This document shows positions 4 to 38,201 of a DNA stretch of 64,000 bases, one piece after another. The position numbers and the translations under genes are program-made. Every line of letters begins with the position of its first letter. Positions within the stretch are counted from its first letter, which is position 1. Below the pieces are notes generated by a model. The model was not told the DNA's origin and made no database searches. It saw only the letters and a list, made by a program, of their open reading frames with translations. Origin of the DNA: Myxococcota bacterium (GTDB lineage Bacteria > Myxococcota_A > UBA796 > UBA9615 > JAKLKC01); NCBI GenBank assembly GCA_023150875.1, contig JAKLKC010000040.1, positions 1 through 64,000 on the forward strand, written 5' to 3'.

Positions 4-2879
4 GCTTCAATGGAGCCACGGCCGTTCAGCCGTGGAAGGTCGAACAAGACAAGCCTCACAGCCTCCCCAAGAACGGGCTTCAATGGAGCCACGGCCGTTC
101 AGCCGTGGAAGGCGCGTGCCATGGCGCCGGGTCTGCCCTCCCCCCGGCCGCTTCAATGGAGCCACGGCCGTTCAGCCGTGGAAGGGGGTCGAAGTCCCCG
201 AGGTCGATGTTGCCGCGCGTCCGCTTCAATGGAGCCACGGCCGTTCAGCCGTGGAAGGCTCGACGTCGCACCGGGTGAGGATCGGCCTGATCGGCTTCAA
301 TGGAGCCACGGCCGTTCAGCCGTGGAAGGGTGCAAAGTTCGGCACCTCCGCCGCCACTGCGGCGCCGCTTCAATGGAGCCACGGCCGTTCAGCCGTGGAA
401 GGCGGTGGGCGCGGGAGTGGCGGGTGGACGACCCGCGCGCCGCTTCAATGGAGCCACGGCCGTTCAGCCGTGGAAGGGGTGGCGGACGTGCTCTCCGATG
501 CTCTGGTGCGAATGGCTTCAATGGAGCCACGGCCGTTCAGCCGTGGAAGGGACTCCGGTGGAGGTCATCGCCGCGCCTGGCGCCGGGCTTCAATGGAGCC
601 ACGGCCGTTCAGCCGTGGAAGGTCCCGGGTGGCCCGTCGGCGAACGGCGGCCCGTCGGCGCTTCAATGGAGCCACGGCCGTTCAGCCGTGGAAGGACCGT
701 CGCAAGCCCCTCGAGGCCGACCTCGAGGTTCTGCTTCAATGGAGCCACGGCCGTTCAGCCGTGGAAGGCCTGAAACGTGTGGTGGGGACGCCAGGCCATC
801 GCGGCGCTTCAATGGAGCCACGGCCGTTCAGCCGTGGAAGGCGCCCCACGCCCAGGGGGGCACGTCGGCGTCGAGGGTGCTTCAATGGAGCCACGGCCGT
901 TCAGCCGTGGAAGGCGCGGCGCCGGGTTGCGGGGCGAGGGCCCCGAGGCGGCTTCAATGGAGCCACGGCCGTTCAGCCGTGGAAGGGCCCTTCGACTCGG
1001 CCGGGACCCTCAAGGGCGGTGCGCTTCAATGGAGCCACGGCCGTTCAGCCGTGGAAGGGACTATGCCCCCCAAGACCCCAAGACGGCCCGGCCCGCTTCA
1101 ATGGAGCCACGGCCGTTCAGCCGTGGAAGGGGTCAAGCTCGGGCGGAACGACACCTGCACCTGGCCGGTGCTTCAATGGAGCCACGGCCGTTCAGCCGTG
1201 GAAGGGGGGCGGTGACGATCCTTGCGGCCCGGCCAGGAATGGGGCTTCAATGGAGCCACGGCCGTTCAGCCGTGGAAGGGTACTTCCCCGGGGACTCCAT
1301 GCGCGAGCTGCTCGAGCTTCAATGGAGCCACGGCCGTTCAGCCGTGGAAGGGTGACTATGGTGCCACTGGACGATCCGCTGGTAGCCCGCTTCAATGGAG
1401 CCACGGCCGTTCAGCCGTGGAAGGCCGCCTGGAGCTCCCGGATGGGCTCTGGGCCGCCAAGCTTCAATGGAGCCACGGCCGTTCAGCCGTGGAAGGGCTG
1501 GGGCTGACGGCGACGCCGTCGCGGGCCGACGGGCTTCAATGGAGCCACGGCCGTTCAGCCGTGGAAGGCGCGAGCACCGCGTCCAGCGCCCCGCGATCCG
1601 CCCCGCTTCAATGGAGCCACGGCCGTTCAGCCGTGGAAGGGGGCTCGGGAGGAGTTCACCGCGGCCAACCGCGCCGCGCTTCAATGGAGCCACGGCCGTT
1701 CAGCCGTGGAAGGTCCTCCAGAAGACCTATCAGCCGTCGCCGAGCGCGGCTTCAATGGAGCCACGGCCGTTCAGCCGTGGAAGGTGCACTATCTGGCGGC
1801 CCCGGCGCTGGAGGCGTCCGAGCTTCAATGGAGCCACGGCCGTTCAGCCGTGGAAGGCGGCCACCCGCCGCCCCAGTCGGCGGGGAGGTGGTCGCTTCAA
1901 TGGAGCCACGGCCGTTCAGCCGTGGAAGGCGCAGTCGTAGCGACCTACTACGCCACGGGCCAGGGGCTTCAATGGAGCCACGGCCGTTCAGCCGTGGAAG
2001 GGTTCGCACCGCCGCGACGGGCCTCCCCGCGGGCGCCGGGCTTCAATGGAGCCACGGCCGTTCAGCCGTGGAAGGGTCGTGCGGATCTACGTCGGCGACG
2101 AGAGCGGCGCGGGGCTTCAATGGAGCCACGGCCGTTCAGCCGTGGAAGGGGGCGGGGGGTGCCGGTGGAGGTGCCCGATGGATACGGGCTTCAATGGAGC
2201 CACGGCCGTTCAGCCGTGGAAGGTGGGGCCGTTCCAGTTCACCAGCGACACGAGCCTCAAGCTTCAATGGAGCCACGGCCGTTCAGCCGTGGAAGTCGGG
2301 GACCAAGCTCCACGTCCGGGTCGCGGTGGAGCTTCAATGGAGCCACGGCCGTTCAGCCGTGGAAGGCGCTGCTGAAGGGGGCGCGGTGGGTGGTGGGGCT
2401 GAGGCTTCAATGGAGCCACGGCCGTTCAGCCGTGGAAGGTCGCCCGCCTCCCCCACGCCAGCGCCGGGGCCTCGATGGCTTCAATGGAGCCACGGCCGTT
2501 CAGCCGTGGAAGGCGGCGGCGAAACGGGATCCCTCGTCGCAGCGTCCCTGCTTCAATGGAGCCACGGCCGTTCAGCCGTGGAAGGTAGCTCGGGTCGCCG
2601 GAGCTGGTCTCCCACGCTACGCCGCTTCAATGGAGCCACGGCCGTTCAGCCGTGGAAGGCGGCCCCCCTCGTTTCGGCGCCGGCCGCGCCGTTCGATGCT
2701 TCAATGGAGCCACGGCCGTTCAGCCGTGGAAGGGTCCGTGTCCGACGACACCGGTGTAGTGCTTCGCCAGGCTTCAATGGAGCCACGGCCGTTCAGCCGT
2801 GGAAGGGCCGCGCGTAGGCGATCTGCTCGCGTCGCCAGACGTCGCTTCAATGGAGCCACGGCCGTTCAGCCGTGGAAGG
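4..2879 (-). CRISPR. CRISPR array, 40 repeats of 36 bp (type I-G), continues beyond left edge
   Basis: Forty copies of a 36-bp repeat lie 70-75 bp apart, which leaves 39 spacers of 34-39 bp. On the plus strand each repeat starts GCTTCAATGGAG, then has stem arm CCACGGC, loop CGTTCA, stem arm GCCGTGG, and ends AAGG. Repeat starts include 4, 77, 150, 223, 294, 660, 1244, 2040, 2771 and 2844. On the minus strand the repeat ends in ATTGAAGC, the usual form of a type I crRNA 5' handle. With cas2 and a leader on the right, this indicates minus-strand transcription, so the newest spacers should be near 2844. All copies I read are identical except the one at 2261-2296, whose last base is T. Bases 1-3 are the end of another spacer, so the array is longer than the window shows. 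I saw no duplicated spacers. Confidence 0.98.
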
Positions 2880-27005: not shown

Positions 27006-29618
27006 TCAGAACAACGCGAGGTAGGCCCAGAAGTTGTCCGTGTCGTAGTACCCCGACATCGGAACCGGAGCGGGGGTCAGCCGGACGAAGATCCCGGTGG
27101 GGTCCCAGTAGTCCCCCGCCCAGGAGGGGGCCCGCATGTAGAAGCCATCGATGGCGTCGTAGTTCGGGCGATAGGTCTCCACGATGTTGGCGTTGGTGGC
27201 CAGGACCGGGTTCGAAGAGACGTCGTGGGTGACCCCCCAGGTCGTGATCTGTTCCCGCTCCGACGCATCCACGAACCACTCCTCGGGCCAGTCGCAGGGC
27301 AGGTCCTGGTCCGCCGAGAAGGCCAGGTCCAGGTGCCAGGTGTCGTCGCAGTCGCAACTCGCCTCGGGGGGGCCGACGGTGATGTTGCCCAGGAGGTCGA
27401 AGGTGTCCCAGCACAGGTAGTTGCCGTCGGTGTCGCGGTACTCGATGTCGAGCCTCCCCGTCACCGTCGGTCCCGTCACCTCCACCGCGATCCACAGGGT
27501 CGCCTTCTCGGGCGTGGGGGCGTCCGCGCCGGAGCAGTTCTCGTCGAGGCCGTTGGAGGGCACGTCGTCGCCCCCCGGGCTCACGTCGGGATCGGCGTCG
27601 TCGCAGTCCCCACCCGAGGCCACGTTCACGCACGGCTCGGTCTCGCAGTAACCGTCCCCGTCGTCGTCGTAGGCGGTGGTCCCCTCGTCCACCGTACCGT
27701 CGCAGTCGTTGTCCACCCCGTCCAGGGACTCGGTGCGGCCGGGGTACCGCTGCGTCGTGGTGTCGTCGCAGTCCCCCCCCGCCGCCGCGTTCACGCACGG
27801 AGCGGTCTCGCAGTAGCCGTCCCCATCGTCGTCGTAGGCGGTAGTCCCCTCGTCCACCGTGCCGTCGCAGTCGTTGTCCAGGCCGTCCCGGGACTCGGAG
27901 TTGTAGGGGAAGCGCGCGGCGTTGGCGTCGTCGCAGTCGCCGCTCGCCTCGGTCCAGCCGTCCCCGTCGTCGTCGTACACCGTGGTCCCCTCGTCGACGA
28001 CGCCGTCGCAGTCCTCGTCGATGCCGTTGGCCAGCTCCGCGGCCCCGGGGCGGACCCCCGCGGACGCGTCGTTGCAGTCGCCGCCCACGTCCCCGGGGCT
28101 GGTGCAGGGGGAGGTCTCGCAGTAGCCGTCGCCATCGTCGTCGTACGCCGTCGTCCCCTCGTCCGCGGTTCCGTCGCAGTCGTTGTCCCGGCCGTCCGCC
28201 ACCTCCGTCGCCCCGGGGCGAACCAGGGCGTTGGCGTCGTCACAGTCCCCGGCGTTCTCGGTCCAGCCGTCCCCGTCGTCGTCGTAGGCCGCCGTCCCCT
28301 CATCCACCAGGCCGTCGCAGTCCTGGTCGATCCCGTCGGCGGTCTCGGTGGCGCCGGGGCGGACCGAAGAGGAGACGTCGTTGCAGTCCCCCGGGAGCAC
28401 CCCCGCCTGGGTGCACGGCGAGAGCTCGCAGTAGCCGTCGCCGTCGTCGTCGTAGGCGGTGGTCCCCTCGTCCACCAGGCCGTCGCAGTCGTCGTCCACT
28501 CCATTGGGCGCCTCCGCGGCCCCGGGATGCACGCTGGCGTCGGAGTCGTCGCAGTCGCCCCCGAGTCCGGTGTAGCCGTCCCCATCGTCGTCGGCCCCCT
28601 CGGTCCCCTCGTCCACCAGGCCGTCGCAGTCGTCGTCCCTGCCGTTCAGGGCCTCGCTGGCGCCGGGGTAGACCAGGGAACGGGTGTCGTCGCAGTCCCC
28701 CGGCGAGGCGCCGCCGACGCAGGAGGCCCCTTCGCAGTAGCCGTCGCCGTCGTCGTCGAAGGCCGAGGTCCCCTCGTCCGCCGTGCCGTCGCAGTCGTCG
28801 TCGATGCCGTTGGCGATCTCGGCGGCGCCGGGGCGGATCGTGGCGTTGCCGTCGTTGCAGTCGCCCTCCGCCTCGCTGAACCCGTCCCCATCGTCGTCGT
28901 AGGACGTGGTCCCTTCGTCCACGAGGGTGTCGCAGTCGTTGTCGAGGCCGTCTCCCGCGCCGGTGCCCGCGCCACCGTCCTCTTCGGCACCCGGGTACAC
29001 CGCCGGCTCGGCGTCGTCGCAGTCGCCGCCGACCTCCGTGTGGCCGTCGCCGTCGTCGTCGTAGCCGTCCGTGCCGTCGTCGACCAGGCCGTTGCAGTCC
29101 TGGTCGACGCCGTCCAGGACCTCGACCGCCCCCGGGCGGACCGTGGCGTTCTGGTCGTTGCAGTCCCCCTCGACCTCGCTCCACTCGTCGCCGTCGTCGT
29201 CGTAGGCGGTGGTCCCCTCGTCCACGAGGGTGTCGCAGTCGTTGTCGAGGCCGTCGCCATCGCCGGTGCCGGTGCCTCCGTCCTCGTCAGCGCCGGGGTA
29301 GACGGTGGCGTTGTGGTCGTCGCAGTCCTCGGACTGGTCGAAGCCGTCACCGTCCTGGTCGAGGCCCGAGGACGTGTCGTCGTCGGCGGTGTCGTCGTCG
29401 GGGACGGTATCGTCGTCGGCCGTGTCGTCGTCGGACGCGCTGTCGTCGTCCGGCGCCGTGTCGTCGTCGGACCCGCTGTCGTCGTCGGCGGTGGCGTCGT
29501 CGTCGTCGAGGTCGTCGTCCCCGCTCGGGGCGCACCCCGCGGACATCGCCAGGAGGCCGAACAGCACGAACGCCAGGGCGGCGCGGGACATCGGGAACGG
29601 GGACGCGGAGTGGCTCAT
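27006..29618 (-). CDS. MopE-like lipoprotein with twelve Asp-rich (Stigma_1) repeats
   Basis: The protein has 870 residues. Signal peptide, then lipobox S-A-G-C, then an Asp/Ser/Ala/Thr linker made of short DDD blocks. Twelve repeats of about 47-57 residues follow. Each has the pattern YDDDGDG...GDCDD...V.PGA.E..NG.DDDCDG.VDEGT, the MopE/Stigma_1 putative metal-binding motif common in myxobacteria. Repeats 5, 7, 9, 11 and 12 have an extra Cys pair (DGYCE..PC). A unique C-terminal domain (about 200 residues, starting near ATLWIAVEVTG) is beta-rich and Trp/Tyr-rich. Likely a calcium- or copper-binding surface protein. ATG 29618 follows GAGGTGG; the frame beyond it to 30038 is not protein-like. 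Confidence 0.88.
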   Translation of the reverse strand: MSHSASPFPMSRAALAFVLFGLLAMSAGCAPSGDDDLDDDDATADDDSGSDDDTAPDDDSASDDDTADDDTVPDDDTADDDTSSGLDQDGDGFDQSEDCDDHNATVYPGADEDGGTGTGDGDGLDNDCDTLVDEGTTAYDDDGDEWSEVEGDCNDQNATVRPGAVEVLDGVDQDCNGLVDDGTDGYDDDGDGHTEVGGDCDDAEPAVYPGAEEDGGAGTGAGDGLDNDCDTLVDEGTTSYDDDGDGFSEAEGDCNDGNATIRPGAAEIANGIDDDCDGTADEGTSAFDDDGDGYCEGASCVGGASPGDCDDTRSLVYPGASEALNGRDDDCDGLVDEGTEGADDDGDGYTGLGGDCDDSDASVHPGAAEAPNGVDDDCDGLVDEGTTAYDDDGDGYCELSPCTQAGVLPGDCNDVSSSVRPGATETADGIDQDCDGLVDEGTAAYDDDGDGWTENAGDCDDANALVRPGATEVADGRDNDCDGTADEGTTAYDDDGDGYCETSPCTSPGDVGGDCNDASAGVRPGAAELANGIDEDCDGVVDEGTTVYDDDGDGWTEASGDCDDANAARFPYNSESRDGLDNDCDGTVDEGTTAYDDDGDGYCETAPCVNAAAGGDCDDTTTQRYPGRTESLDGVDNDCDGTVDEGTTAYDDDGDGYCETEPCVNVASGGDCDDADPDVSPGGDDVPSNGLDENCSGADAPTPEKATLWIAVEVTGPTVTGRLDIEYRDTDGNYLCWDTFDLLGNITVGPPEASCDCDDTWHLDLAFSADQDLPCDWPEEWFVDASEREQITTWGVTHDVSSNPVLATNANIVETYRPNYDAIDGFYMRAPSWAGDYWDPTGIFVRLTPAPVPMSGYYDTDNFWAYLALF

Positions 29619-29816
29619 GTCGCCCACCTCGGCTGGGGGGTGCCGGCGCGCGGTCGGGACCGGCACACGGTCGTGAGTCGGTGATCGTAGCACGGCGGGA
29701 CCCAAGGGGGGCGGCCCCGCCGGGTCGAGCGGCGGCGACGCTTGCCCGCGGCCCGCTCCCGCGGCATACCGGCGGGAGCCCGCCCGGCAGCGGCGCGGCG
29801 CGGACAGGAGGCGGTG

Positions 29817-30626
29817 GTGCCCGAGCTTCCCGAGGTCGAGATCTGCCGGCGGAACCTGGCCCGGTGGGTCGGTGCGCGGGCCCTGGAGGGGGCTCGGGTT
29901 CCGGAACCGCGCTCCCTGGTGGGCTGCTCCCCCGGGGACCTGGACGAGGCGGTGCGGGGCCGGCGGACGGAAGCGCTGTCGCGCAAGGGGAAGCGGATCC
30001 TGTGGGTCCTGGAGGGGGGGCTGGCCCTGTGCCTGCACCTGGGCATGACCGGCAAGTGGCTCAGGAGGGAGCCGGGGGAGGACCCGCCCCGCTTCACCCG
30101 CGCGGTCCTCCAGGTGCGGGGCGGGCCCGTGCTGTGCTACCGGGACCCACGGCTACTGGGGCGGGTGGGCCTCCGGGGCGAGGCAGGGGGCAGGGCGTGG
30201 CTGGAGGCGGGCCTGGGCCCCGACGCGCTGGACGAGGCGCCCGACGGGCCGGGGCTGAGGGCGAGGCTCGGCGGCACGCGCCGGCCGCTGAAGGTCGCGC
30301 TGATGGATCAGGCCGCCCTCGCCGGGCTCGGGAACATCCAGGCCGCCGAGGTCCTGTGGCGGGCCCGCCTGCGCCCCGACCGCGCCCCCGCCACCCTGTC
30401 GGACGCGGAGTGGAGCACCCTGGCCCGGACCATCCCCGCCGTCCTGGAGGAGACGATCCGGGAGGAGGACGCCGACGAGATCGCGTACGTGGAGGAGGAT
30501 CCCTCCGCCAACCCCTTCCGGGTCTACGGCCGGGCGGGGCAGCCCTGCCCCCGCTGCGGCGCAACCCTGATCCGGAACGTCCACGGTGGCCGCGGCACCT
30601 ACGGGTGCCCGGGTTGCCAGGAGTGA
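29817..30626 (+). CDS. mutM: Formamidopyrimidine-DNA glycosylase (Fpg/MutM)
   Basis: The protein has 269 residues, the family norm. The GTG at 29817, behind AGGAGG, gives V-PELPEVEICRR. After removal of the first residue, proline becomes the catalytic N-terminus and Glu3 the general acid. A Lys in SRKGKRILW and the H2TH region GLGNIQAAEVLWRARLRP are present. The C-terminal zinc finger CPRC...CPGC carries the Arg near the tip. The enzyme removes 8-oxoguanine and formamidopyrimidines and nicks the strand. It is divergent from the MopE-like gene across 198 bp that show nothing else. Confidence 0.96.
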   Translation: MPELPEVEICRRNLARWVGARALEGARVPEPRSLVGCSPGDLDEAVRGRRTEALSRKGKRILWVLEGGLALCLHLGMTGKWLRREPGEDPPRFTRAVLQVRGGPVLCYRDPRLLGRVGLRGEAGGRAWLEAGLGPDALDEAPDGPGLRARLGGTRRPLKVALMDQAALAGLGNIQAAEVLWRARLRPDRAPATLSDAEWSTLARTIPAVLEETIREEDADEIAYVEEDPSANPFRVYGRAGQPCPRCGATLIRNVHGGRGTYGCPGCQE

Positions 30627-31399: not shown

Positions 31400-31416
31400 T
31401 TGCGACACTGTCGCAA
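31400..31416 (+). promoter_or_regulatory. Perfect 17-bp dyad, candidate Fur/Zur-type operator
   Basis: TTGCGACACTGTCGCAA is a perfect 8-1-8 inverted repeat, 52 bases before the start of the metal-uptake operon and 85 bases before the divergent HAD gene. A weaker TGCCA/TGGCA pair follows at 31418-31432. The 8-1-8 form resembles Fur-family operators, and a Fur-family gene lies at the far end of this cluster. I cannot name which metal it senses from the sequence. Confidence 0.6.
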
Positions 31417-31467
31417 TTGCCATAGGGTGGCAGTGTCCGGTCGGCGGTGGGCGCGGAGGACGGGCGC

Positions 31468-32787
31468 GTGGCGGAAGGGAAGGTCGTGGCGAGGAGCCGA
31501 GGAGCGGGGATCCGGCAATGGGGCTGGGGCGGGCCGGGGCCTTGGGCACTGGCCGGCGTCCTCCTCTTCACGGCGCCCGGAGCCCTGGCGGAGGAGGGGG
31601 AGGCGGGCGGGGACGGGGCGGAGGAGACGGACCCCGCCGGCGGCACGAGCGCCGAGGACCAGGCCGCCATCGAGGCCGCGTTCGCGGCGGCCGCATCGCC
31701 CCCGGCCTCGGCCCCCCCGCCCGGCACCGGCCAGGTCCTCCAGGCCCTGATCCCCGACATCGCCGTCATCGCCGACGTCGCCCTGGCGGTCTTCTCGGCC
31801 GACGACCCGATGCAGACCGGCGGCCACGACCCCACCGCCACCGGGTTCAACCTCCAGCAGGTGGAGCTCTCCATCGGCAAGTCGGTGGACCCCTACTTCC
31901 GGCTGGACGGCAACATCGTCTTCAGCCTGTTCGGCGTCGAGGTCGAGGAGATCTACGCCACCACCCTGGGCCTGCCCGCCGGCCTCCAGGTGCGCCTCGG
32001 CCAGTTCCTCACCCGCTTCGGCCGCGCCAACGCCACCCACCCCCACGCCTGGGACTTCGCCGACCAGCCCCTGGCCATCGGGCGGGTATTCGGGGGCGAG
32101 GGGAACCGCGGGCTGGGGGCCGAGGTGTCGGTGCTCCTGCCCCTGCCCTGGTACGTCGAGGTGGTGGGCTCGGCGACCGGCGCCGCCGGCGAGGCCACCG
32201 CCCGCAGCTTCTACAGCGCCCAGGATCTGGGGGTGGACTCCCCCCTGGACTTCCAGTACACGGCGGCGATCAAGCAGTTCTTCCCCCTCTCGGACGACTG
32301 GTCCCTGGCGTGGGGGCTCAGCTACGCGGGCGGGCCGAACCCCACGGGCCGGACCAACCGCAGCGAGGTCTTCGGGACCGACCTCTACCTGAAGTTCCGC
32401 CCCGTCCGCAGCTCCCGCGGGACCATGGTGGCCCTCCAGTCGGAGTGGCTGTACCGCAGGCGCCAGGTCCCCGGCGACGTGCTCCAGGACGTGAACGGCT
32501 ACGCACACCTCCTGTGGCGGTTCGCCCCCCGCTGGGGCGCCGGGGCCCGCTACGAGCTGGGAACCCCGGCGTGGGCGGGCGAGGACGGGACCCAGGACGA
32601 CCTCGACCCCGATTGGACCACGCTGCGCCACCGGATCTCGGCGAACGTGACCTTCTGGCCCACCGAGTTCTCCCGGATCCGCCTCCAGGGGTCCAGCGAC
32701 GTCGCCGGCTGGCGGGACGCCCCGGTGTGGGCGGGCTTCCTGGCCTTCGAGTTCGTGATCGGCGCCCACGGTGCCCACGCCTTCTGA
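31468..32787 (+). CDS. Outer-membrane beta-barrel (porin-like) of the metal-uptake operon
   Basis: The protein has 439 residues. A signal peptide ends near TAPGALA, followed by an acidic, Ala/Pro-rich linker. From about residue 105 onward alternating aromatic strands (FNLQQVELSIGKSVDPYFRLDGNIVFS, LQVRLGQFLTRFGRAN) suggest a 14-18-strand barrel like phosphate-selective or short-chain porins. The last residues are ...FVIGAHGAHAF, ending in Phe as outer-membrane barrels usually do. Two His occur in the final loop. It lies 12 bases before znuA, so it probably admits the metal or a metal complex. I took GTG 31468 after GGAGGA; GTG at 31447 and 31486 are alternatives. Confidence 0.82.
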   Translation: MAEGKVVARSRGAGIRQWGWGGPGPWALAGVLLFTAPGALAEEGEAGGDGAEETDPAGGTSAEDQAAIEAAFAAAASPPASAPPPGTGQVLQALIPDIAVIADVALAVFSADDPMQTGGHDPTATGFNLQQVELSIGKSVDPYFRLDGNIVFSLFGVEVEEIYATTLGLPAGLQVRLGQFLTRFGRANATHPHAWDFADQPLAIGRVFGGEGNRGLGAEVSVLLPLPWYVEVVGSATGAAGEATARSFYSAQDLGVDSPLDFQYTAAIKQFFPLSDDWSLAWGLSYAGGPNPTGRTNRSEVFGTDLYLKFRPVRSSRGTMVALQSEWLYRRRQVPGDVLQDVNGYAHLLWRFAPRWGAGARYELGTPAWAGEDGTQDDLDPDWTTLRHRISANVTFWPTEFSRIRLQGSSDVAGWRDAPVWAGFLAFEFVIGAHGAHAF

Positions 32788-32799
32788 CGGAGTCTGCCC

Positions 32800-33720
32800 A
32801 TGATCCCCCGCCGTCTCGCCCTCCTGGCCCTGGTGGCGCTCCTGGCCGCGGGCGCGCCCTCCGCCGCCGCCGCGGCGCTCCGGGTCGTCGCCACCGTGCC
32901 CGATCTCGCCGCCCTCACCCACGAGGTCGCCGGGGACCGGGCCCGGGTGGTGTCCCTCGCGCTGCCCAGCCAGGACCCCCACTTCGTCGACGCGAGGCCT
33001 AACCTGGCGCTGGAGCTCTCCCGGGCAGACCTCCTGGTGACCGTAGGCCTGGAGCTGGAGGCGGGCTGGCTCCCCAACCTCCAGGTGGGCTCCCGGAACC
33101 CGCGGATCCAGACCGGCGCCCGGGGGCACCTGGACTGCTCTCGCCTGGTCCGCCTCCTGGACGCCCCCGCGGGCCCCATCGAGAGGTCCATGGGGGACAT
33201 CCACCCAGGAGGAAACCCCCACTACCTCCTGGACCCCCGCAACGCCGCCGCCGCCGCCCGGGGGATCGCCTCGCGGCTCTCCGAGCTGGACCCCGCGGGC
33301 GCCCCCACCTACCTGGCGCGGGCCGACGACTTCGCGCGGCGGGTGGAGGAGGCCCGGGTGCGGTGGGAGCAGGCGATGGCGCCGCTGCGGGGGGCGAACG
33401 TCGTGGGCTACCACCGCTCCTTCCCCTACCTCGCCGAGTGGCTGGGCCTGAACGTCGTCGAGCACATCGAGCCCCGGCCGGGGATCCCCCCCACCCCGGG
33501 CCACGTCCACCACGTGCTGGCCACCATGCGCGAGAAGGGGGTCCGCATGGTCCTCCAGGAGCAGTTCTACCCCCAGACCTCGGGGCGACTCGTCGCCGAC
33601 CGGGCCGGCGTCCCGGTGGTGACCGTCGCCGGGGGCACCGACTTCCCCGCCGGCCAGACCTACATCCAGCGCATGGAGGCGCTCGTCGGGCAGCTCGGGG
33701 TCGCGGGGGGTGGCAAGTGA
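32800..33720 (+). CDS. znuA: Metal ABC transporter substrate-binding protein (ZnuA/cluster A-I)
   Basis: The protein has 306 residues with a cleavable signal peptide (about 1-26). It has the cluster A-I ligand set: His61 in QDPHFVDARPN, His141 in GNPHYLLDP, His205 in VGYHRSFPYL, and an acidic residue near Asp281 in GGTDF (or Glu254 in LQEQF). EPRPGIPPTPGH is the typical hinge motif. The His-rich loop of many zinc-specific members is absent, so zinc and manganese are both possible. It delivers metal to ZnuBC. The stop overlaps the GTG of the next lipoprotein gene. Confidence 0.9.
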   Translation: MIPRRLALLALVALLAAGAPSAAAAALRVVATVPDLAALTHEVAGDRARVVSLALPSQDPHFVDARPNLALELSRADLLVTVGLELEAGWLPNLQVGSRNPRIQTGARGHLDCSRLVRLLDAPAGPIERSMGDIHPGGNPHYLLDPRNAAAAARGIASRLSELDPAGAPTYLARADDFARRVEEARVRWEQAMAPLRGANVVGYHRSFPYLAEWLGLNVVEHIEPRPGIPPTPGHVHHVLATMREKGVRMVLQEQFYPQTSGRLVADRAGVPVVTVAGGTDFPAGQTYIQRMEALVGQLGVAGGGK

Positions 33721-34547
33721 GCCCCCACCCGCTCCGCCTCGTCGCCCTGGTCGCCGCGCTGTCCGCCGGCTGCACCTTCACCCCGGGAGGAGGCTTCGGG
33801 ACCCTGGGGGAGGCGACCTTCGCCGCTGCCTTCGAGCCCGGCGCCCGGGACCTGGGCGACGGCGGAGCCCTGACCGACCTGCTGTACCGGGTCCACCTCG
33901 ACTCCGCGACCCTCTCCGCCGGCGACCTCGTCCTGGCGGAGCTGTCGGGGGGGGGAGGAGCCTCGTTCGACCCCGCCGCGCCTCCCCCCGGCTACACCCT
34001 CTGCCACGGCGGGCACTGCCACTCCGAGGACGGCGCCCTCGTCGACTACGCCGACATCGAAGCGGAGCTGGCGGGGGGAGCGGCTTCCTTCGTGCCGGTG
34101 CTCACCTTCCCCCTGAGCGGCGACCTGGACCTCCTCGCGGGGGGATCCGTGGCCCTGGATCCCGTTGGGGATGGCTCCCTCCTGCCCGCGGCGGAGGTGA
34201 GCAAGGCCACTCTCGACGTCAGCAGGATCCGCCTCGCGGGGAGCGTCTCCGGCGGCCCGGAGGGCTCGGGGATCGGCGAGATCGGGGTGCCCCTGGCGGT
34301 GGACCTCGAGGTCTCGGGTCAGGTGGGTGCGGGGCTGGACCTGCCCATCGCCCGGGACGAGGACCCCATCATCGACCTGTCGGTCCGCCTGGTGGTGGAC
34401 GGCACCGTCTTCGACGGCATCGACTTCGCCCCCCTCTCCGCCTCCGGCGAGGTGATTCTGGATGCCCTGGAGGAGGAGGCCGCCGCGGCCCTGGCCGCCG
34501 CCGTGCTGGCGAGCGGCCTCGAGATCGACCTGGAGCGTTCCCGGTAG
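33717..34547 (+). CDS. Lipoprotein with a CHGGHCH motif in the metal-uptake operon
   Basis: The protein has 276 residues. The GTG at 33717 overlaps the znuA stop (GTGA) and gives a signal peptide ending L-S-A-G-C (Cys19). The mature protein is beta-rich. Residues 96-102 read CHGGHCH, followed by SEDG, a compact cluster of two Cys and three His that would bind Zn or Cu well. The C-terminal half (VDLEVSGQVGAGLDLPIARDEDP, then an Ala-rich helix) has no recognised motif. Being between znuA and znuC, it is probably a periplasm-facing metal relay or buffer. I do not know a named family for it. Confidence 0.8.
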   Translation: MSPHPLRLVALVAALSAGCTFTPGGGFGTLGEATFAAAFEPGARDLGDGGALTDLLYRVHLDSATLSAGDLVLAELSGGGGASFDPAAPPPGYTLCHGGHCHSEDGALVDYADIEAELAGGAASFVPVLTFPLSGDLDLLAGGSVALDPVGDGSLLPAAEVSKATLDVSRIRLAGSVSGGPEGSGIGEIGVPLAVDLEVSGQVGAGLDLPIARDEDPIIDLSVRLVVDGTVFDGIDFAPLSASGEVILDALEEEAAAALAAAVLASGLEIDLERSR

Positions 34548-34580
34548 CGCCATCCCGGCGCCGACCCCTACGGAGGAGAG

Positions 34581-35066
34581 ATGATGATCCGAAACGCCCA
34601 CGCCGCGAGGTGGCTGCTGACCGCCGGAGCCCTGGCCCTGGCGGGCTGCGAGCCCGAAGTCGAGGACCCCGCCGCCCACGCCTGCGAGCACGTCTCGGAG
34701 GCGGGGACGGCGGTGACCGCTTCCGACGTCATGGACGCCAACACGCCGGAGATCGTCCTGGGCGAGGAGCCCCACACCGTCACCCTGGCCGCCGCCACCC
34801 CCGGGTACGTGCGGGTGGAGATCGAGGGCGACACCGCCGCCCTGCTCTTCGCCGGGACCGCCGACGTGGTCCAGGGCCTCTTCCACGGCACCGAGGAGGA
34901 GTCCCTCCCCGAGCCCTCCCCCAACGACCTCTGCGCCGAGGACATCCCCGAGCACTACGATCTCGACTTCCACGAGGCCGGCTCCTACTATCTGGAGCTC
35001 CTCTCCGCGCAGGGTGGCGACGTGTGGCTGCTGCTGTCGTCCGCTGAAGGCCACGGCCACGAATGA
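34581..35066 (+). CDS. Small lipoprotein with His/Cys clusters in the metal-uptake operon
   Basis: The protein has 161 residues. A strong GGAGGAGAG precedes the ATG. The signal peptide ends L-A-G-C (Cys23). Close after it is HACEHV with His33, Cys35 and His37. The middle has a beta-sandwich-like pattern (ATPGYVRVEIEGDTAALLFAG), and the C-terminus is EGHGHE. Histidines at both ends suggest metal binding. Its stop overlaps the znuC ATG (ATGA), so it belongs to the transporter operon. Function is inferred only from place and composition. Confidence 0.8.
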   Translation: MMIRNAHAARWLLTAGALALAGCEPEVEDPAAHACEHVSEAGTAVTASDVMDANTPEIVLGEEPHTVTLAAATPGYVRVEIEGDTAALLFAGTADVVQGLFHGTEEESLPEPSPNDLCAEDIPEHYDLDFHEAGSYYLELLSAQGGDVWLLLSSAEGHGHE

Positions 35067-35824
35067 GCGACGCGATCCCGCTTGCCCGCCCCGAGCCGAC
35101 CGCGGCGGTGCTCCGCTGCGAGGGGCTGCGGGTCGGCTACGGCGGGACGCCGCTACTCCCTCCCATCGACGTCGAGGTCCGGGCCGGCGAGTTCTGGGCC
35201 GTGGTGGGCCGCAACGGCTCGGGCAAGTCCACCTGGTTCCGCACCCTGCTGGGCCTCCAGCCCCCCGTCGGCGGGCGGATCGTCTGGCCGTCGGGGGATC
35301 CCCGGATCTCCTACGTCCCCCAGCGCACCGGCTTCGACGACCTCTACCCCATCCTCGCCCGGCACGTGGTGGCGATGGGGATCGACCGGGGCTGGTCCTT
35401 CCTGCGCCCCTCCCTCCTCCGGGAGTCCCCCGAAGTGGGGCGGGCCTTGGGCGCGGTGGGCGCCGGGGACCTCGCCGACCGGACCTTCCGCTCCCTCTCC
35501 GAGGGCCAGAAGCAGCGGGTCCTCCTCGCCCGCCTGGTGGTGTCCGGCGCCCGCCTGGTCCTCCTGGACGAGCCCACCGCCGCCATGGACGTCGTCGCCG
35601 AGGCGGAGTCCCTGCGGATGCTGGACGAGCTGCGGAGGCGGTACGGGATGGCGACGATCGTGGTCAGCCACTACCTGGGCGTCGCCCGGGACTTCGCCGA
35701 CCGCGTGATCCTGCTGGACCGGGACGAGCAGGAGGTGGTGGTGGGGACCCCCCGGGAGGTCTTCGAGCACGCCGCGTTCCGCTCCCGCTACGGCGAGCCC
35801 GAGGACCTGCTCTTCCATGGGTGA
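35063..35824 (+). CDS. znuC: Metal ABC transporter ATPase
   Basis: The protein has 253 residues. Walker A is GRNGSGKST (49-57), the signature is LSEGQKQRVLLARL, Walker B is LVLLDEPTAAMD, and the switch His is in IVVSHYLG. Size and neighbours fit the ZnuC/MntA-type ATPase that drives metal import. It overlaps the gene before by four bases and the permease gene after by eight, so the three are translated together. Confidence 0.93.
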   Translation: MSDAIPLARPEPTAAVLRCEGLRVGYGGTPLLPPIDVEVRAGEFWAVVGRNGSGKSTWFRTLLGLQPPVGGRIVWPSGDPRISYVPQRTGFDDLYPILARHVVAMGIDRGWSFLRPSLLRESPEVGRALGAVGAGDLADRTFRSLSEGQKQRVLLARLVVSGARLVLLDEPTAAMDVVAEAESLRMLDELRRRYGMATIVVSHYLGVARDFADRVILLDRDEQEVVVGTPREVFEHAAFRSRYGEPEDLLFHG

Positions 35825-36671
35825 GCCCGCCCCTTCCTGGGCGGAGTTCGCCTCCGCCTTCGAGCTCTTCCGCGACCCCATCGTCTGCGGCGTGCTGGCG
35901 GGGGTGGTGCTGGGCTACCTCGGCGTCTTCGTCGTCCTCCGCCGCATGGTCTTCGTCACCGCGGCCATCAGCCAGTCCGCCGGCCTCGGCGTCGCGCTGG
36001 CCTTCTACGCCCAGATCCACCTCGGCCAGGAGACCGCCCACCCCGTCGCCGGGGCCCTGGCCCTGTCGGTCCTGGCGACCCTCCTCTTCGCCGCCCAGCC
36101 CGAACGTCTCCGGGTCTCGCGGGAGAGCCTGCTGGGCCTCGCCTACGTGGCCGCGGGCGCCGCGGCGGTGATCGTGGGGGACCGGATCACCCAGGAGTCC
36201 CACGACATCTCCGCGATCCTCTTCGGCACCGCGGTGCTCGTCCGCCCCGAGGACCTGCGGGCCGTCCTCGGGGTCGGCCTCTTCGTCACCGCGGTCCACC
36301 TGTGGTGGCACCGGGGCTTCCTGTTCGCCGCCTTCGACCCCGACGGCGCCCGGGTCCACGGCCTGCCGGTGCGCCTCCTGGACACCGTCCTCTGGCTCCT
36401 GGTGGCCCTGGAGGTCTCGGTGACCACCCGGGCCCTGGGGGCGCTGCCGGTCTTCGCCTTCGCCGTCCTGCCCGCCATGGCCGCGCTGATGGCCAGCGGC
36501 GGGCTCCGGGGCGCCTTCCCCCTCGCGGCCCTCCTCGGGGGGATCGCCGGGGGCGCCGGTTACGTGCTGGCCTACTTCCTGTCGACTCCGGTGGGAGCCA
36601 CCCAGGTCGTGGTCGCCGCCTCGCTGGTGCTCCTGGCGCTGCCCGTCCGGGCCGTCCGGGGCCGGGCCTGA
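35817..36671 (+). CDS. znuB: Metal ABC transporter permease
   Basis: The protein has 284 residues and about eight membrane segments, the ABC-3 family pattern. Family marks include FVVLRRMVFVTAAISQSAGLGVAL near the start and the conserved DISAILFGTAVLV in the middle. It forms the homodimeric channel with ZnuC. Its start overlaps the end of znuC by eight bases. The next gene (a glutaredoxin fusion) begins 129 bases later and could be in the same transcript or separate. Confidence 0.93.
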   Translation: MGEPAPSWAEFASAFELFRDPIVCGVLAGVVLGYLGVFVVLRRMVFVTAAISQSAGLGVALAFYAQIHLGQETAHPVAGALALSVLATLLFAAQPERLRVSRESLLGLAYVAAGAAAVIVGDRITQESHDISAILFGTAVLVRPEDLRAVLGVGLFVTAVHLWWHRGFLFAAFDPDGARVHGLPVRLLDTVLWLLVALEVSVTTRALGALPVFAFAVLPAMAALMASGGLRGAFPLAALLGGIAGGAGYVLAYFLSTPVGATQVVVAASLVLLALPVRAVRGRA

Positions 36672-36800
36672 TCTCCCCTCGGATCCGGACCTCCCGGCTC
36701 CTCCCCACCGGAATCCGCGTCCGGGGGCTGGCCGGAAAGGTGACGTGACGTCAGAATCTCCGCCGCCGGCCGCGAGGTGCCGGCCCACCGGAGGCTGGAC

Positions 36801-37724
36801 ATGGAGCTCCACGAAGACACCCGCAAGCGCATCTCGCAGATCGTCGAGTCGAGCCGGGTCGTCCTGTTCATGAAGGGCGATCGGACCCAGCCCCGGTGCG
36901 GCTTCTCGGCGGCGGTGGTGGGGGTGCTCGACGAGATCGGCGTGGAGTACGAGACCGTCGACGTCCTGGCGGACCAGGAGATCCGCGAGGGCGTGAAGGG
37001 CTTCAGCAACTGGCCCACCCTGCCGCAGCTCTACGTGGGCGGGACCTTCGTGGGCGGTTCCGACATCGTCCGCCAGCTCCACGGATCCGGGGAGTTGAAC
37101 GAGATGCTCGGAGTGCCGGTCGTCCCCGTCTCCGCCCCCGGGATCTCGATCACCGACGCCGCCCGGGACGAGCTGGCGCGGGCGGTGGCGAGCGCCGGGG
37201 GCGAGGCCGTGCGCCTGGTGGTGGACGCCCGCTTCCAGGTGGGCCTGGAGCTGGACACCCCCCGGCCGGGGGACTTCGAGGTCCAGGCCAACGGCGTGAA
37301 GCTCCTGGTGGACCGGGGCTCGGCCCGGCGCGCCGACGGGATCGCCATCGACTTCCGCACCTCCCCCATGGGCCGGGGCTTCGTCATCGACAACCCCAAC
37401 CGGATCCAGGTCCGCTCCATCACGCCGGCGGAGCTGAAGGAGCGCATGGACCGGGGCGACACGCCTCGGATCCTGGACGTGCGGGGCGCCGACGAGCGGG
37501 CCATCGCCCGCATCGAGGGATCGCGGCTGCTGGACGCCGCGGAGGCGAGGGAGGTGGAGGGGCTGCCCAAGGACGCCTTCCTCGTCTTCGTCTGCCACAC
37601 CGGCGTCCGGAGCCAGGACGCCGCGGAGCGCTTCGCCTCCCGGGGTTTCCGGAACACCTACAACCTGACCGGCGGGATCGACGCCTGGTCCCGCGAGGTG
37701 GACCCCTCCGTCCCGCGCTACTGA
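36801..37724 (+). CDS. Monothiol glutaredoxin - A-type-like - rhodanese fusion
   Basis: The protein has 307 residues in three parts. Residues about 1-105 are a Grx4-type monothiol glutaredoxin with RCGFS active site, WPTLPQLYVGG and GGSDIVRQL. Residues about 115-205 resemble an IscA/A-type carrier fold (ISITDAARDELARAV ... ANGVKLLVDRGS ... GIAIDF), but all three cysteines of A-type carriers are absent. The C-terminus (about 210-307) is a rhodanese with active-site loop FVCHTGVRSQ. Grx4 proteins carry Fe-S clusters; the rhodanese suggests sulphur handling. The ATG at 36801 is seven bases after GGAGG. It converges on the Fur-family gene. Confidence 0.88.
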   Translation: MELHEDTRKRISQIVESSRVVLFMKGDRTQPRCGFSAAVVGVLDEIGVEYETVDVLADQEIREGVKGFSNWPTLPQLYVGGTFVGGSDIVRQLHGSGELNEMLGVPVVPVSAPGISITDAARDELARAVASAGGEAVRLVVDARFQVGLELDTPRPGDFEVQANGVKLLVDRGSARRADGIAIDFRTSPMGRGFVIDNPNRIQVRSITPAELKERMDRGDTPRILDVRGADERAIARIEGSRLLDAAEAREVEGLPKDAFLVFVCHTGVRSQDAAERFASRGFRNTYNLTGGIDAWSREVDPSVPRY

Positions 37725-37754: not shown

Positions 37755-38201
37755 TCAGGCGCAGCGCTCGCACTGGCCCTTGAGCTGCACCTCCAGGGTC
37801 CTGCCCGTCAGGGAGCGGGCGGGGGCGCCGGCGTCGGTCAGCTCCACCCGCACCCCCGGGAGGCACTTCACCTCTCCGCAGGTCACGCACATGAAGTGGG
37901 GATGCTCCCCGGGGGCTCCGCCCCCACCATCCGGGCGCATCTCGTATCGCCAGACGTGGTCGCCCAGGTCCGTGCGGGACACGATCCCGGCCTCGGTCAG
38001 GTCCGCCAGGTTCCGGTAGATCGTGGCCCGGTCCCAGCCGTCGGGAGCCAGGTCTTCCATGACCTGGGCGTGGCTGAGGGGGGTGTCGGCGCCGCAGAGC
38101 CGCCGGAGCACGGCGATCCGCGGGGCGGTCGTCCGGAGTCCCGTGGACCGGATCCGTGCCCGCAGCTCCTCGATGCTCGGGGCTCGCCGGGGTCCGCTCA
38201 T
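37755..38201 (-). CDS. Fur-family metalloregulator, probably Zur-like
   Basis: The protein has 148 residues. The N-terminal winged helix includes LRTTAPRIAVLRRLCGADTPLSHAQ and RATIYRNLADLTEAGIV, the Fur-family recognition region. The C-terminal part has HPHFMCVTCGEVKCLP and QCERC, two CxxC pairs that make the structural zinc site. With apparent His ligands in GDHVWRYEM and HPHF it could sense zinc, manganese or peroxide; its place beside a znu operon favours Zur. It is a good candidate to bind the dyad at 31400-31416. The 189 bp upstream shows no dyad of the same sequence. Confidence 0.88.
   Translation of the reverse strand: MSGPRRAPSIEELRARIRSTGLRTTAPRIAVLRRLCGADTPLSHAQVMEDLAPDGWDRATIYRNLADLTEAGIVSRTDLGDHVWRYEMRPDGGGGAPGEHPHFMCVTCGEVKCLPGVRVELTDAGAPARSLTGRTLEVQLKGQCERCA

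Follow-up and report, generated by a model that had tools for sequence, protein, structure and literature searches.

How does zinc cross an outer membrane without a TonB-dependent receptor, and by what route does it then get to ZnuA? Both steps are poorly understood, and both are raised by a locus in a Myxococcota bacterium with a genome of 6.9 Mb. In the 64,000-nt stretch of this genome analyzed here—the window, in which all window coordinates are positions—nucleotides 31486–36671 are a complete, tightly coupled operon of six genes, encoding an outer-membrane barrel (OMB), ZnuA, two lipoproteins that we call LP1 and LP2, ZnuC and ZnuB. We think it fairly probable that this is a high-affinity zinc uptake operon under Zur control, whose products form a route that spans the envelope. 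An earlier note on this DNA had placed the six genes and had read them as a full route from the outside. The genes, their overlaps and short gaps, and the three His/Cys motifs that it singled out are all where the note put them, the proposed route fits, and regulation points to zinc as the metal. The elements of the locus are:

31401–31415, no strand: Fur-family (Zur-type) operator 1, TGCGACACTGTCGCA, within the perfect 17-bp palindrome TTGCGACACTGTCGCAA (31400–31416)
31418–31432, no strand: Fur-family (Zur-type) operator 2, TGCCATAGGGTGGCA, in tandem, 17 bp downstream of operator 1
31486–32787, plus strand: outer-membrane barrel OMB; the frame is open from the GTG at 31447, and the GTG at 31486, behind GGAAGGGA, is the likelier start
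32800–33720, plus strand: ZnuA, cluster A-I metal-binding protein (PF01297, E 4e-46)
33717–34547, plus strand: LP1, lipoprotein with lipobox Cys19 and a CHxxHCH module; GTG start
33966–34049, plus strand: the LP1 module FDPxxPPxGYxxCHxxHCHxxDGxxVxY, LP1 residues 84–111
34002–34022, plus strand: CHGGHCH codons, LP1 residues 96–102
34581–35066, plus strand: LP2, small lipoprotein with lipobox Cys23, predicted beta-sandwich; invariant C35 and C118
34677–34694, plus strand: HACEHV codons, LP2 residues 33–38
35049–35063, plus strand: GHGHE codons, LP2 residues 157–161, the C-terminus
35063–35824, plus strand: ZnuC, ABC ATPase
35817–36671, plus strand: ZnuB, ABC-3 permease (E 5e-42)
37755–38201, minus strand: Fur-family regulator, candidate Zur of the operon; in other genomes its homologues neighbor barrel/znu or LP2 genes

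ZnuA and LP1 overlap by GTGA, LP2 and ZnuC by ATGA, and ZnuC and ZnuB by 8 bases; the remaining gaps are 12 and 33 bases long. A scan for sigma-70 promoters and terminators found nothing. Judged by sequence, the identities of ZnuA, the ABC ATPase and the ABC-3 permease are certain: a PF01297 binding protein and its two transporter partners stand in one operon, as ZnuABC is defined, and ZnuA is the sole PF01297 protein in the genome. Its ligand set, H61, H141 and H205, is invariant in 26 aligned ZnuA proteins. The His-rich loop typical of Gram-negative ZnuA—common, not obligatory—was not found there, and a short GDIHPGGNPH loop is present in 26/26. Searches of Pfam and NCBIfam gave no above-cut-off match for OMB, LP1 or LP2.

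Zinc is the most likely metal, because the box that relatives carry at these genes is the Zur box published for Desulfovibrio, where the proposed sequence, ATGCAACNNNGTTGCAT, has the same 15-bp core, TGCAA-N5-TTGCA (PMC545781). Zur control of the operon is thereby indicated at the level of operator sequence, the tandem operators at 31401–31432 being Zur-type by sequence; the earlier note was silent on these, and on the Fur-family gene downstream. The perfect palindrome of operator 1, TTGCGACACTGTCGCAA, is the sole copy in the genome, and two of the eight TGCNA-N5-TNGCA sites genome-wide lie side by side at the operon. None of the zinc families tested has a gene at the other sites (L159–L163; L-numbers denote loci). 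Of 69 barrel loci, 13 have TGCAA-N5-TTGCA upstream of the barrel, against an expectation of 0.01, and eleven genomes carry two to eight such sites each, against none to two in a reversed control. A count of 17-mer palindromes upstream of barrels yielded no common box; the 15-bp form did show one.

In genomes whose operon is split, the box precedes barrel-LP1, complete ZnuACB operons (L164–L166, L168, L172) and Fur/LP2 pairs (L167, L177, L190), and at L169 a gene for a ZigA-type zinc GTPase (1672–2847, minus strand; NF038288, E 2e-156) lies behind two tandem boxes, at 2952 and 2980. ZigA is absent from the window's own genome. The box is found at His-rich lipoprotein genes in relatives, too. 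A single operator common to parts so scattered is independent evidence for their working together. At L141, L142 and L173 the box adjoins other small lipoproteins with His-rich starts, and DHWH in some, that by eye are unrelated to LP1 and LP2. Divergent from a boxed ZnuACB operon at L152 is a frame (1909–2598, plus strand) that reads like the plug of a TonB-dependent receptor; a second route of zinc entry, of TonB type, may exist in some of these genomes.

Since its relatives match BBP2, Porin_O_P and the TonB-receptor barrel, all weakly, an outer-membrane beta-barrel is the best reading of OMB. The signal-peptide-like start and C-terminal Phe of the window protein support this reading, which was also that of the earlier note. 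A profile sequence search of the PDB returned nothing for it. Conserved residues are E167/E168, the HxH pair H198/H200, and a C-terminal GAHGAHxF; E167, E168, H198, H200, H441 and H444 are kept across the barrels of Myxococcota, Vibrio and Sulfurovum. The homologues of Vibrio campbellii and Sulfurovum are located before ZnuA and a permease, and two gamma-type Zur boxes precede that of V. campbellii (L135; profile E 5e-33). Judged by composition and species list, the V. campbellii genes correspond to omr-znuA2-znuB2 of V. parahaemolyticus (VP_RS21430–21420), a cluster whose expression rises 1034-, 543- and 283-fold when zinc is limiting (PMC9817125). The two systems have in common a homologous barrel with HxH and GAHGAHAF, followed by ZnuA and ZnuB, and Zur boxes in front, with induction by zinc limitation known for Vibrio only; they differ in that LP1 and LP2 were not found in Vibrio, and in that no ZnuC gene is adjacent there. 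Databases call omr a zinc-regulated TonB-dependent receptor. No match to a TonB plug domain was found in the window barrel, its relatives or the Vibrio homologue, and the sequence does not support that name, which we suggest is wrong.

The CHGGHCH motif of LP1 is, on the evidence of its homologues, not a product of chance: D85, P86, P89, P90, C96, H97, H100, C101 and H102 are invariant in all 66 that bear the module. In the structure model of LP1 (mean pLDDT 92) the motif lies between two short strands, 93–97 and 100–103. The fold found no significant match in the PDB (best E 0.026), and a profile sequence search of the PDB found nothing. Two family leads were dropped: ZrgA (PF10986), with weak matches in 2/53 relatives, both in a His-rich stretch, and DUF4382, with one in 1/53. 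Natural variants bear on its function. At L102, in a barrel-LP1-ZnuA-ZnuC-ZnuB operon, the LP1 relative lacks the module and has DDHGHDHGHDHEDDHGDEE in its place; this replacement by a His-rich loop, together with invariance where the module is present, suggests that metal binding is the module's task. Additional His-rich loops occur in some LP1 relatives. The module also travels: as FDPxxPPxGxxxCHRNHCH, followed by VASYxQVMxExGATK, it is fused before an FKBP_C domain (Pfam-confirmed in four cases) away from znu genes at L085, L086, L087, L088, L090, L091, L093 and L094. LP1 looks like a candidate new part of a zinc relay, and its module like an insert that binds metal, carried by a scaffold with another task that would be tied to the barrel. 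Paralogues of that scaffold that lack the Cys/His module occur in other settings (L194, L196, L198 and L177 6942–7883); the last carries AHAHPNH and lies near a Fur-LP2 pair.

LP2 is modeled as a small beta-sandwich (mean pLDDT 89) resembling collagenase PPC-type beta-sandwiches (1nqd, E 6e-5), a likeness uninformative on function; a profile sequence search of the PDB found nothing. C35 and C118 are both invariant among 25 aligned sequences, and so they probably form a disulfide; E36 is present in 24/25 and H37 in 19/25. With the Cys of HACEHV probably engaged in this structural bond, LP2 has a poorer claim than LP1 to be a metallochaperone. The earlier note had proposed both lipoproteins as good candidates for new metallochaperones: LP1, with its CHxxHCH invariant in 66/66, remains a candidate, and LP2 loses ground. 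In relatives of LP2, runs of His and Asp follow the lipid anchor, and the ends are rich in His.

We surveyed 284 Myxococcota genomes and three named genomes. Among the 284, the barrel occurs in 137, LP1-type proteins in 62 and LP2 in 61, and the order barrel-ZnuA-LP1-(LP2)-ZnuC-ZnuB recurs across the phylum. Had the lipoproteins occurred mostly away from metal transporters, as the earlier note recognized, its interpretation would have been refuted. They do not: barrel and/or ZnuABC genes are present at every one of the 55 loci with a module-bearing LP1 outside FKBP fusions. In 50 of these the barrel is directly adjacent and on the same strand, the other five being mostly cut by contig ends; within the fetched stretches ZnuA is found at 43, ZnuB at 35 and LP2 at 31. 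Otherwise, in one family, LP2 lies directly behind a Fur-family gene. Some LP2 genes stand outside znu operons, as paralogues in other settings (L178–L181, L186, L188, L192, L193), and LP2 is for this reason less specific than LP1. Where the barrel was fetched without a full-length LP1 (40 loci), ZnuA adjoins it in all but a few. In one family the barrel-LP1 pair stands alone and ZnuACB is elsewhere in the genome; because LP1 stays with the barrel even then, the reading that suits it best is that of a zinc-accepting partner to the barrel. A scan of named genomes with the single LP1 sequence found four relatives, all in Myxococcota, including Polyangiaceae, Corallococcus and Myxococcus. It found none outside the phylum, a matter that such a scan is hardly able to test. 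On plasmids, no LP1 was found.

These observations can be assembled into a working scheme. When zinc is scarce, the Fur-family repressor (Zur; candidate at 37755–38201) would leave the tandem operators. The plugless barrel, with its conserved set of His and acidic residues, would then let the ion, free or in a small zinc complex, cross the outer membrane independently of TonB. LP1, lipid-anchored beside the barrel, would contact it and take the ion on its CHxxHCH hairpin, and LP2, with His/acid-rich ends, would add binding capacity. The lipoproteins would pass zinc to ZnuA, which has a His-His-His site and no His-rich loop of its own, and ZnuA would deliver it to ZnuBC for import. The metallochaperone role of LP1 in this scheme—zinc binding and transfer to ZnuA—is what we infer from invariance, context and the His-loop swap, and of the functions considered for LP1 relay is the best supported. 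A bolder proposal, which we offer tentatively and think somewhat improbable, is that LP1 and the barrel make up a dedicated entry complex, selective for zinc and independent of TonB, in which LP1 closes the inner side of a His-lined channel and its CHxxHCH hairpin takes the ion and hands it to ZnuA. CHxxHCH would then be a new mobile zinc-binding module, used also in the FKBP foldases of Myxococcota. If true, barrel, LP1 and ZnuA make a continuous metal path across the envelope.

Several points weigh against the zinc route. Many Myxococcota have barrel-ZnuA-ZnuC-ZnuB without LP1 or LP2, so the lipoproteins are accessories and the barrel and ZnuABC the core. The window's boxes are TGCGA/TGCCA variants of TGCAA-N5-TTGCA rather than the exact consensus, and the degenerate pattern TGCNA-N5-TNGCA has a high background, with 20 sites in the reversed control. 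The searches brought up no sequence homologue of any known metallochaperone, and C96 and C101 of LP1 could form a disulfide. Further, LP1-like relatives beside the barrel at L134, L114 and L195 have neither module nor His-rich loop; the scaffold must therefore do something besides bind metal. LP1 might chiefly partner the barrel structurally, serving it as a lid or gate on the periplasmic side or as an assembly factor, as some other barrels are served by lipoproteins; the Cys/His insert would then be a secondary zinc sensor or buffer, not a relay. That LP1 tracks the barrel more tightly than it does ZnuABC, to the point of standing with it alone in one family, agrees with this, as do those three scaffolds without the module. 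We nevertheless consider it unlikely, for the module is invariant where present and is swapped for a His-rich loop at L102, which speaks for metal binding as its task.

Could the operon serve manganese or iron, instead? Cluster A-I transporters include importers of both, the Mn-type MntC ranks second in NCBIfam for ZnuA, and the Fur-family protein is not clearly a Zur equivalog. Against this stand the zinc-type His-His-His set of ZnuA, operators of the published Zur type that in a relative also precede ZigA, and a Vibrio counterpart that responds to zinc, and we rate such a specificity as very improbable. That LP1 and LP2 serve to store zinc or to trap it for detoxification, and are not parts of an uptake path, seems a little less improbable, but still a poor prospect: the His/Asp-rich ends of LP2 relatives resemble buffers, yet the lipoprotein genes stand in the operon of an importer, behind zinc-starvation-type operators, and not among efflux genes. 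Hardly any chance remains for CHGGHCH as a heme c attachment site, which would make small cytochromes of LP1 and of the FKBP proteins with that motif. CX4CH is a minor heme c pattern, and CHGGHCH formally has it; but a heme site would not need H97 and H100, which are as invariant (66/66) as the heme-type residues, LP1 belongs to a zinc regulon, and at L102 the module is exchanged for a His-rich loop.

Measured against known systems, the zinc route proposed here is part old and part new. The earlier note knew of no described system of this make-up. As regards LP1, LP2 and the six-gene arrangement this stands, and we find them new to the literature found. It does not stand for the barrel-ZnuA-permease core, which is already known through its homology to the Vibrio omr cluster (PMC9817125). 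No openly accessible paper on how myxobacteria take up zinc was found. ZnuD-type TonB-dependent receptors provide zinc entry through the outer membrane under Zur. The barrel here differs from them in its size, ∼400 residues, and in having no plug match (on Zur-controlled receptors, see PMC6103462). AztABCD of Paracoccus denitrificans is likewise an ABC importer of zinc, in which an additional periplasmic protein passes the metal to the binding protein (PMC6689063). AztC is the best NCBIfam model for ZnuA here, and AztA for ZnuC, with scores that fall short of the AztA, AztB and AztC equivalog cut-offs (145/220, 103/280 and 95/350 bits). Neither LP1 nor LP2 resembles AztD: they have no family match, and their modeled folds match no such protein. 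We know of no barrel in the AztABCD operon. ZrgABCDE of Vibrio cholerae is another zinc importer under Zur control, and it includes an unusual periplasmic protein rich in His (PMC9820375). It differs in that ZrgA takes the place of ZnuA, and LP1 has no PF10986 match. The znuABC-zur genes of Desulfovibrio have been described without barrel or lipoproteins (PMC545781).

Two neighbors of the operon deserve mention. Directly downstream of znuB, at 36777–37724 on the plus strand, is a fusion of a monothiol glutaredoxin, a weak Fe-S-biosynthesis-like stretch and a rhodanese. Upstream, at 27006–30038 on the minus strand, is a lipoprotein-like open reading frame, very rich in Asp, with many calcium-binding-type DDDGDGY..DCDD repeats.

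What emerges is a phylum-wide type of operon that pairs a zinc-regulated barrel with a lipoprotein of its own. Three unnamed protein families are defined by it, along with a candidate metal-binding module that foldases share. Natural variants—module kept, swapped for a His loop, or lost—make both of the questions with which we began, that of outer-membrane passage in the absence of a TonB-dependent receptor and that of delivery to ZnuA, directly testable.

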